A stretch of DNA of 64,000 nt from an uncultured Oscillospiraceae bacterium (GTDB lineage: Bacteria > Bacillota > Clostridia > Oscillospirales > Oscillospiraceae), in NCBI GenBank assembly GCA_947626315.1, contig CANQRQ010000001.1:62001-126000 (forward strand), written 5' to 3'. Below, piece by piece: positions 24,815 to 62,141 of the stretch. The translations under genes were made by a program, and so were the position numbers. Under the pieces are notes generated by a model. The model was not told the DNA's origin. It did not search any database and worked only from the letters and a program-made list of their open reading frames with translations. Each line of letters starts with the position of its first letter. The stretch's first letter is position 1.

Positions 24815-24907
24815 GGAGGGTTACCGAAGCGGTCACAACGGGGCGGTCTTGAAAACCGTTAGGGCTGGAATACGCCCACAGGGGTTCGAATCCCTTACCC
24901 TCCGCCA
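24815..24907 (+). tRNA. tRNA-Ser (anticodon TGA), CCA encoded
   Basis: GGAGGGTTACCGAAGCGGTCACAACGGGGCGGTCTTGAAAACCGTTAGGG..variable arm..GGGGTTCGAATCCCTTACCCTCCGCCA. Confidence 0.95.
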
Positions 24908-24942
24908 TGCAAAACCCCAATGCTTCGCATTGGGGTTTTGCA
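24908..24942. terminator. Terminator/hairpin after tRNA-Ser
   Basis: TGCAAAACCCCAATGC-TTC-GCATTGGGGTTTTGCA perfect stem. Confidence 0.6.
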
Positions 24943-24944
24943 AC

Positions 24945-25018
24945 GAAATCCGTCCTGCGGACGGGTGAAATCCCGCTGACGCGGGATGAAATCGCTTCGC
25001 GGTGAAATCCTGCTTCGC
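24945..25018. repeat. Array of short palindromes separated by (T)GAAATC
   Basis: GAAATC at 24945, TGAAATC at 24966, 24987, 25003; between them CCGTCC-TGC-GGACGG, CCCGC-TGAC-GCGGG, CGC-TTC-GCG, CCTGC-TTC-GCAGG. Confidence 0.85.
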
Positions 25019-25025
25019 AGGATGC

Positions 25026-25232
25026 AGGTGACAGAAGGCTAACCAAAGCCGCTTCCCTTGTGCTCTGGGGGCAGGAACTCCCTGTGAAGTGCGAAGCAGT
25101 TTCTGGCGAGCAGATTTTTTCTCAGGCTAGGAAAAGCCCGCAGGAAATACTTTGTGTATTTTCAAGGGCTTTGACACAGCATGAGGGAAAATCTGCCGTC
25201 AGAAACCGGCTTGGATTAGCCTTTTGTCACCT
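25026..25232. other. Long imperfect inverted repeat / candidate structured RNA (~207 nt)
   Basis: 25026-25050 AGGTGACAGAAGGCTAACCAAAGCC pairs with 25208-25232 (reverse complement AGGTGACAAAAGGCTAATCCAAGCC, 22/25); 25099-25118 pairs with 25188-25206; AAAGCCC/GGGCTTT and GAAATAC/GTATTTT near the centre. Confidence 0.8.
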
Positions 25233-25240
25233 AAAGGACG

Positions 25241-25335
25241 GATTTCATTTCATCGGCGCTTCAGCGCCGATTTCACCAAGGGCGCAAGCCCTTGATTTCA
25301 CCGTGCCAGGGGCACGATTTCACTTTCGCAGGTGA
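25241..25335. repeat. Mirrored array of short palindromes separated by GATTTCA
   Basis: GATTTCA at 25241, 25269, 25294, 25316; hairpins CGGCGC-TTCA-GCGCCG, AAGGGC-GCAA-GCCCTT, CGTGCC-AGG-GGCACG. Opposite orientation to the 24945 array. Confidence 0.85.
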
Positions 25336-25344
25336 GGAATTAAA

Positions 25345-25692
25345 ATGGCTGGGAATCATTTATCTGAGCTTTCCATGGACTTGGCGGTAAAAACGCTGAA
25401 GATTTGCGAGAATATAAAAGGGCATTATTCTCTCGTCAACCAGCTGGAACGCTCTTCAACCAGTATCGGCGCCAATATCCGTGAAGCAAACTACGCCCAT
25501 AGCCGGTCGGATTTCATCGCAAAGCTCCAAATCGCGCTGAAGGAGTGCTATGAGACGGAATATTGGCTTGAACTTATGCTGCGGGCAGAAATTGGAGAGA
25601 GGGAGACCGCCAATCAATTGAAGCACGATTGCGGTTCTGTCCGGCGAATACTTGTAGCATCTGTTAATACAGCAAAGGCGAAAAACTTGTAG
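25345..25692 (+). CDS. Four-helix-bundle protein (23S rRNA intervening-sequence / S23 family)
   Basis: 115 aa; LSMDLAVKTLKICENIKGHYSLVNQLERSSTSIGANIREANYAHSRSDFIAKLQIALKECYETEYWLELM is the family signature. Confidence 0.9.
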   Translation: MAGNHLSELSMDLAVKTLKICENIKGHYSLVNQLERSSTSIGANIREANYAHSRSDFIAKLQIALKECYETEYWLELMLRAEIGERETANQLKHDCGSVRRILVASVNTAKAKNL

Positions 25693-25697
25693 AATTT

Positions 25698-25757
25698 CCG
25701 CCTCTCCGCCATCAAAAAAGCAGCCTAACGGCTGCTTTTTTGATGGCGGAGAGGCGG
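25698..25757. terminator. Perfect 28-bp inverted repeat (strong bidirectional hairpin)
   Basis: CCGCCTCTCCGCCATCAAAAAAGCAGCC-TAAC-GGCTGCTTTTTTGATGGCGGAGAGGCGG. Confidence 0.85.
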
Positions 25758-47915: not shown

Positions 47916-48009
47916 GGCAGCGGAAGCGGAAACCGCACCGCACATCGCTGTTTCGTCCGTGGACAACTTCCCATCCCACGGCACTTAACGCGCGGCTTCC
48001 TACTCTGTC
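47916..48009 (-). ncRNA. Tetrahydrofolate (THF-I) riboswitch aptamer
   Basis: Minus strand CAGAGTAGGAAGCCGCGCGTTAAGTGCCGTGGGATGGGAAGTTGTCCACGGACGAAACAGCGATGTGCGGTGCGGTTTCCGCTTCCGCTGCC; P2 GGAAGCCGC/GCGGTTTCC, P3 CCGTGG/CCACGG, conserved GCGTTAAGTG. Confidence 0.88.
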
Positions 48010-61912: not shown

Positions 61913-61953
61913 CATGATGCGCTGAATTAAAGCGCTAAATTTCATACAGGTTT

Positions 61954-62122
61954 GGCAATAGAGGCGCGGAGCTTAAGAGTACCTGCCCGGAGGGCGCGGA
62001 GCCCGGGGAACGGCGGGGAAAGGAAGTTTCGCCGAAACCTTCAGCCTTTCCGCGGGCTGATGCAGTTGGGGTGCAGTTGAACAGGCTGCACACTCTCACC
62101 GGATTCGGTGGAGGAGCTATTG
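61954..62122 (+). ncRNA. Lysine riboswitch
   Basis: CAATAGAGGCGCGGAGCTTAAGAGTACC...GGGGAAAGG...TTTCGCCGAAACC...GGCTG...GGAGGAGCTATTG; P1 CAATAG/CTATTG; L-box core motifs AGAGG(C)GCG, AAGAGTA, CGCCGAA. Confidence 0.9.
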
Positions 62123-62141
62123 TTTCACGAACGAAACTTGT

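Follow-up and report, generated by a model that had tools for sequence, protein, structure and literature searches.

A Gut-1 hairpin array, its mirror image and a four-helix-bundle gene after tRNA-Ser: a candidate family of small mobile DNA elements

The locus after tRNA-Ser

The 64,000-nt stretch analyzed here (the window) belongs to an uncultured Oscillospiraceae bacterium (assembly GCA_947626315.1, contig CANQRQ010000001.1, positions 62,001 to 126,000), and this report concerns a unit that directly follows its tRNA-Ser(TGA) gene: a terminator-like hairpin, an array of short hairpins, a second array facing the first, and a small gene for a four-helix-bundle protein of the S23/IVP family (Table 1). 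An earlier note, made from the letters of the window alone, had pointed to the tRNA, the palindrome arrays, a long hairpin between them, the open reading frame (ORF) and a 28-bp repeat beyond it; all of these are present and had been placed correctly.

The left array belongs to Gut-1 (RF01706), a non-coding RNA candidate published from the human gut without a function (Weinberg et al. 2010, PMC2864571), with a score of 60.4 bits over positions 24941-25013 against a gathering threshold of 50. In the right array the motif is inverted, with a minus-strand match that stays below this threshold (37.9 bits, 25265-25347). GGACGGATTTC, the first part of the right array, and the 5' arm of the left array's first hairpin are complementary (inverted repeat I3, 89%), and the bundle ORF starts 21 nt past the last right-array spacer. 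GAAATC occurs in four forward and four mirrored copies at the locus, while 2 of 70 control stretches of the window passed the mirrored-word test; the arrays, described in the earlier note as facing each other with reverse-complement spacers, do so far beyond chance expectation.

Table 1. Parts of the unit after tRNA-Ser, and the repeat nested in it, in window positions
Feature	Positions	Strand	Basis or remark
tRNA-Ser(TGA)	24815-24907	+	ARAGORN; host gene, its 3' end being the insertion target
Terminator-like hairpin TGCAAAACCCCAATGC-TTC-GCATTGGGGTTTTGCA	24908-24942	+	16-bp perfect inverted repeat; element-borne, left end of the element
Left hairpin array, spacers (G/A)TGAAATC (Gut-1 motif forward)	24941-25022	+	RF01706 match
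Left-array palindromes	24950-24964, 24972-24985, 24993-25001, 25009-25021		Separated by (G/A)TGAAATC
Long imperfect hairpin, outer arms as in the earlier note	25027-25231		Fold
Nested long imperfect palindrome	25033-25231	+	Separate dispersed repeat with copies elsewhere in the genome; outside the recurrent element
Right hairpin array, spacers GATTTCAC (Gut-1 motif inverted)	25236-25323	-	RF01706 minus-strand match
Right-array palindromes	25253-25270, 25278-25293, 25302-25316		Separated by GATTTCAC
Four-helix-bundle (S23/IVP family) gene, 115 aa	25345-25692	+	PF05635, TIGR02436
Perfect 28-bp inverted repeat (I1), contains CTCCGCCAT	25698-25725/25730-25757	none	Inverted-repeat search

The 28-bp repeat is a perfect inverted repeat, as had been noted, but it is not conserved in relatives. 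The CTCCGCCAT within it resembles the tRNA-Ser 3' end, forming direct repeat D1 with positions 24900-24914. It is probably a bidirectional terminator after the element, and possibly a displaced insertion site.

The long imperfect hairpin between the arrays likewise exists, but its core (~200 nt; ~207 nt in the earlier note) is not part of the recurrent unit, because copies of it are dispersed elsewhere and it is absent from L001, another copy of the unit in the same genome. The inner ~140 nt recur as partial copies (about 71-155 nt, 93-98% identical) at four other places in the genome, at one of them only partially. Copies also lie at several places in the related genomes G018 and G071, with more distant ones (72-79%) in 49 of 101 genomes of the genus, and they often bear inverted ends that resemble a tRNA T arm (GATCGAACCC...GGGTTCGATC). 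This dispersed palindromic repeat of the genus has no Rfam entry. L001 reads GCAGGTGAC/TAAAGGACGG across the corresponding point, and other element copies have a linker of 5-12 nt where the window copy has the palindrome. By these comparisons the palindrome is an unrelated repeat that was either nested in the window copy or lost from L001. The earlier proposal that the long hairpin is the RNA bound by the bundle protein is rejected, the hairpin having proved to be a dispersed repeat that is present in the window copy only.

The window protein matches PF05635 (E = 2.3e-24, 86.1 bits against a cut-off of 33.8) and TIGR02436 (E = 1.3e-27, 96.2 bits against 24), and AlphaFold2 predicts a four-helix bundle with a confidence (pLDDT) of 94.4. 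The nearest solved structures are 2RLD (TM 0.87-0.90) and 2GSC, with five chains per entry, and by analogy with these relatives the protein is probably a pentamer. Next comes Avd of the diversity-generating retroelements (DGRs; 4DWL, 8UB7), which is also a four-helix bundle (TM about 0.8) but only 12-14% identical. Invariant residues include Q33, R36, S40, G42, A43, N44, E47, Y50, D56, F57, K66, E67, E70, Y73, W74, S106, T109 and K111, and the median isoelectric point in the clade is 8.4. In the protein, the profile libraries used recognized no catalytic motif known from transposases, and neither PHROGs nor PADLOC gave a match. A literature search, whose coverage left out most subscription journals, returned no link between the protein family and hairpin arrays or tandem repeats.

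Recurrence, targets and empty sites

The genome from which the window comes has nine Gut-1 matches at six places and a single copy of the protein gene. The five places without the gene are L001, L003 (after tRNA-Ala), L004 (after tRNA-Met), L005 and L006, the last lying beyond the 3' end of the transfer-messenger RNA (tmRNA) gene, among partial copies of that end; hairpins like the window's left-end terminator abut L004, L005 and L006. Gut-1 is present in 23 of 101 sampled genomes of the genus, one of which has 24 matches spread over 16 places. A single layout (terminator-like hairpin, forward array, short linker, inverted array) is common to 20 copies from other genomes, whose linker contains the complement of the first hairpin arm. 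Most arrays in the genus sample stand without a protein gene. Across the 101 genomes there are nevertheless 9 places where Gut-1 and a TIGR02436 gene are no more than ~600 nt apart, against 0.07 expected, and with an excess of about a hundred-fold a chance association of motif and gene is rejected.

The eight closest genes in other genera all combine a terminator, (mirrored) arrays and the ORF, and seven of them come after a tRNA or a tRNA 3' end (L040 is interrupted by a contig end). In these homologues (63-73% identity) the window layout adjoins tRNA genes for Gly, Leu, Arg and Glu or, at L044, a displaced tRNA 3' end; more distant homologues (43-60%) likewise follow tRNAs, with different spacer words (GTGATG/CATCAC, ATGAAG/CTTCAT, TTCACT/AGTGAA, TTATAT/ATATAA, TCGATA/TATCGA and GCTAAA/TTTAGC). 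In the protein clade designated T, 51 of the 112 genes with enough upstream sequence lie less than 700 nt after a same-strand tRNA or tmRNA (14 kinds), with no antisense case, and mirrored arrays accompany 72 of 130 genes. Other PF05635 genes from the same searches had neither a tRNA/tmRNA neighbor (0/40) nor mirrored arrays (0/40). A GTDB scan gave 80 named loci, mostly from gut and rumen Clostridia plus two Akkermansia metagenome-assembled genomes (MAGs), in a set whose source genomes may overlap those of clade T: 38 of 68 follow a same-strand tRNA or tmRNA, none antisense, and 67 of 76 follow mirrored arrays. Among distal control stretches, 12 of 136 passed the mirrored-word test, a few of them being real arrays. 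Where gene and tRNA occur together they are on the same strand (89/89). These counts bear out the co-occurrence with S23-family ORFs that the earlier note had named as a check, and the arrays are not equally common at unrelated loci. The two Akkermansia MAG contigs (L313, L318) carry the gene with one-directional GATATCGT hairpin arrays, through lateral transfer or binning error.

On a tree of 71 members, in which many forks are weakly supported and the protein is short, spacer type changes 8 times, tRNA identity 25 times and host genus 45 times, while left and right spacers stay complementary in every subfamily despite their changing sequence. As read from this tree, the spacer motif changes with the protein subfamily, and host genus and tRNA do not follow it. 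Co-occurrence and co-evolution together demonstrate, at the level of sequence comparison, the link between array and protein.

TTCACT-type elements show a further complementarity: between their two arms lies a stretch of 12-18 nt that exactly complements the tRNA CCA plus the 5' arm of the adjacent terminator. It is locus-specific (L048, L054-L058, L062, L072, L076, L079, L236, L248 and L392; in L056 only with G.U), being found in 12 of 16 cognate cases vs. 7.6% of non-cognate ones, and may be guide-like or a relic of duplication.

Besides intact tRNA genes, the targets include displaced tRNA 3' ends, tmRNA (L133, L315), RNase P RNA (L085, read from sequence) and, in six loci, the 3' end of an rlmD/rumA-like 23S rRNA methyltransferase gene (L049, L064, L074, L218, L234, L250). 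Several spacer subtypes directly follow this last gene, and the last residues of its product vary by locus. The common denominator appears to be the 3' ends of genes. Beyond the intact gene, partial tRNA/tmRNA 3' ends of either orientation were also seen in chains, interspersed with palindromes (L001 1100-1200, L006 1600-1900, L068, L393).

Empty sites occur in related genomes. The orthologous tRNA-Ser of the sister genome G018, beside an 81%-identical LysR gene, is directly followed by unrelated sequence, and no Gut-1 stands at the tRNA-Ala/dnaX site of the same genome, which is 95% complete and in which searches turned up neither the motif nor any TIGR02436 gene. The tRNA-Met of G071, identical over 78 nt, reads CGCTACCA/AAAGCAACGCC (a plain terminator), compared with CGCTACCA/TGCGAAACCCC plus Gut-1 in the window's genome. 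The tmRNA 3' end has a TTCACT-type element in G071 and no element in G018. Both the variable location, at many tRNAs and other genes, and the empty sites had been named as checks in the earlier note, which proposed a stand-alone selfish or mobile unit coupled to the bundle gene. That proposal is upheld: judged by recurrence, the spacer-protein tree, empty sites and dispersed protein-less copies, the unit is real, recurrent and mobile.

A putative mobile DNA element and other readings

We favor, with a probability of roughly 0.6, a family of small mobile DNA elements at gene 3' ends, each with arrays and a cognate bundle gene whose protein recognizes its own array. A full element would be made up of a terminator-like hairpin that it brings along, a fixed-spacer array of short DNA hairpins, the inverted array and an S23/IVP-type bundle gene. 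Its insertion targets are 3' ends, both of genes for tRNA, tmRNA and RNase P RNA and of some protein-coding genes, rlmD/rumA in particular. The element's own terminator would keep the host gene working, making the insertion presumably harmless. Short gene-less copies, which correspond to the published Gut-1 motif, would be non-autonomous derivatives. The bundle protein would recognize the spacer-hairpin units of the element that encodes it, in the form of DNA hairpins that are single-stranded or extruded, and strand transfer would be supplied in trans by another enzyme. The window copy would in addition have received an unrelated palindromic repeat in its middle.

The unit could alternatively be an RNA element, transcribed from the tRNA promoter side, whose left and right spacers pair into a ladder of four-way junctions to which the bundle protein binds, as Avd does in DGRs, and which moves via RNA and a reverse transcriptase (RT) supplied in trans. 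We regard this as unlikely, despite the spacer complementarity kept in every subfamily, the strand agreement of gene and tRNA, the publication of Gut-1 as an RNA motif, the match of the fold to Avd in DGR ribonucleoprotein structures, and the family members carried by genuine intervening sequences (IVSs) of 23S rRNA. Hairpins acting as RNA should tolerate G.U over A.C. The 400 distinct array hairpins have 2,153 Watson-Crick pairs, 5 G.T and 11 A.C, compared with 1,458, 25 and 1, an RNA pattern, in 91 tRNA-adjacent terminators of the same loci (Fisher p = 1e-5 vs. arrays, an optimistic value because array units in related copies depend on one another). Where a first count had been too small, the enlarged sets gave no RNA signature; the G.U-tolerant, one-strand structured RNA implied by Gut-1 was not seen in the 400 array hairpins. 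No RT is linked to the unit, although no genome-wide RT search was made.

Loop sequences bear on the same question. The ATTTCAC strand, top in the right array and bottom in the left, has 245 loops of the form c(GNA)g, c(GNNA)g or c(AAA)g, vs. 21 on the opposite strand. Loop polarity is thus mirrored, as a DNA element whose two arms are equivalent would show; for a single RNA the pattern is awkward. Two of these loop types, c(GNA)g and c(GNNA)g, are reported to be extremely stable in DNA hairpins (Yoshizawa 1997, Nakano 2002), and about half of the GNNA loops are GNYA rather than the RNA-stable GNRA. These two signatures, pairing and loop polarity, support DNA rather than RNA hairpins without proving them. 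The earlier reading of the arrays as non-coding RNA fits less well, and the complementarity behind the structure it described exists in DNA as well.

A further alternative, which we consider rather improbable, makes the unit a satellite or attachment-site remnant of larger integrative elements, mobilized by their tyrosine recombinases. The 3' ends of tRNA, tmRNA and rlmD genes are classic attachment (attB) sites, which the targets of the unit match; L044, at its displaced tRNA 3' end, adjoins a tyrosine-integrase-like C-terminus, and two phage-labelled scaffolds carry the unit. However, the far-side direct repeat of the tRNA 3' end that marks integrative elements is not typical of the 35 loci tested, being absent beyond the gene in 28 and clear in only two (L062, L093). 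No integrase lies inside the unit, and the co-evolution of spacer and protein shows that the unit has a specificity of its own. Finally, palindromic repeats are common in bacteria and Gut-1 arrays mostly lack the gene, but it is highly improbable that ordinary regulatory or structural palindromes (supercoiling of the repetitive extragenic palindrome (REP) type, terminator reinforcement) stand by chance beside an unrelated small protein gene, a notion opposed by the many spacer subfamilies and by family members without arrays, and already refuted by co-location and the protein tree.

Several points weigh against the mobile DNA element that we favor. Transposition itself was not observed, the full element can be delimited only roughly on its right side, just past the stop codon, and both array recognition by the protein and a trans-acting enzyme are steps that we infer. 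A universal target-site duplication of the tRNA 3' end is rejected (7 of 35 loci above shuffles). In other genomes, many copies without the protein gene stand away from any tRNA, and some abut an apparent stop codon. A Y1 (HUH) transposase gene is commoner in genomes with Gut-1 (18/23 vs. 38/78, p = 0.016), but this association is weak: the single Y1_Tnp match in the window's genome is interrupted by a stop codon, and G071 carries Gut-1 but no Y1 match. To these is added the non-independence of array units noted above.

A broader version of the mobile-element reading, put forward tentatively, extends it to a mobile element of a new kind that would occur in several phyla and encode a single protein: an S23/IVP bundle oligomer that would recognize the tandem or hairpin DNA words of its own element via subfamily-specific spacers and thereby mobilize or copy them.

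Known systems and significance

Gut-1 was published as a stand-alone non-coding RNA candidate; here the motif forms one of the two arms of a dispersed element with mirrored arrays, a cognate protein gene is often present, and the hairpins show no RNA signature. The unit also resembles REPs, bacterial interspersed mosaic elements (BIMEs) and REPINs with their Y1 transposases, the RAYTs (PMC3116915, PMC2817692), in its tagged short palindromes, inverted pairs, many dispersed copies and a cognate gene beside one of them; the mirrored arrays in multiple copies are inverted, dispersed palindromic repeats of this sort. It differs in its longer multi-hairpin arrays, its own terminator, its preference for gene 3' ends and its cognate protein, a four-helix bundle rather than a Y1 transposase. 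Neither a cognate RAYT/Y1 nor a GTAG/CGTC-type tag was found, the spacers being GTGAAATC and others. Of the features of classical miniature inverted-repeat transposable elements, inverted arrays are present, while no target-site duplication or transposase was identified.

The 23S rRNA IVSs with S23/IVP ORFs share with the unit the superfamily (PF05635), insertion at stable-RNA loci and long inverted structures, but they sit inside the RNA gene, whereas the unit sits after it. There is no rRNA in the window, and the unit adjoins tRNA-Ser. The 23S-embedded proteins in these genomes are a different subfamily without arrays; true IVSs with family members, serving as a positive control, were found elsewhere in the class. 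As to DGRs, neither an RT nor a template/variable repeat pair is present among the listed ORFs near the unit, no RT-specific or template/variable-repeat search having been made. Ordinary riboswitches lie elsewhere in the window (lysine riboswitch, 61951-62127, + strand; tetrahydrofolate riboswitch, 47916-48009, - strand).

Short tandemly repeated repetitive sequences (STRRs) of cyanobacteria and Beggiatoaceae (TAACTGA; PMC4679880) are similar in that relatives of the gene lie between inverted arrays of such tandem words; unlike in the unit, these arrays enclose the gene, and hairpins and tRNA are absent. For similar heptamers, MacGregor (2015, PMC4679880) proposed an unidentified repeat-binding protein as a mobile factor. 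Homologues on plasmids of Treponema, Nostoc, Monoglobus and Bernardetia (L341-L344) lie between inverted arrays of short tandem words; in Nostoc, AATTCGT repeats precede the gene and ACGAATT repeats follow it, and the Monoglobus gene lies between hsdS and hsdR. The gene is likewise placed between inverted tandem-word arrays in the clostridial loci L132, L135, L136 and L138. The wider link to tandem-repeat arrays is suggestive.

With the mobile DNA element, two orphans receive a shared explanation: the Gut-1 'RNA' motif, known only from gut metagenomes, and the S23/IVP-type protein in its stand-alone form (TIGR02436), among the commonest small protein families of unknown function. The element family is widespread in gut and rumen Clostridia, and each subfamily, with a spacer word of its own, offers a ready-made specificity code for the protein. 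Both the role of S23/IVP proteins and the spreading of short repeat arrays become directly testable, as binding and mobility. An Rfam 'RNA' may turn out to be DNA, a point that matters for interpreting covariation in perfect palindromes. If the broader version is true, a bundle-oligomer mobile element would explain together Gut-1, the stand-alone S23/IVP genes and part of the bacterial STRR-type arrays.
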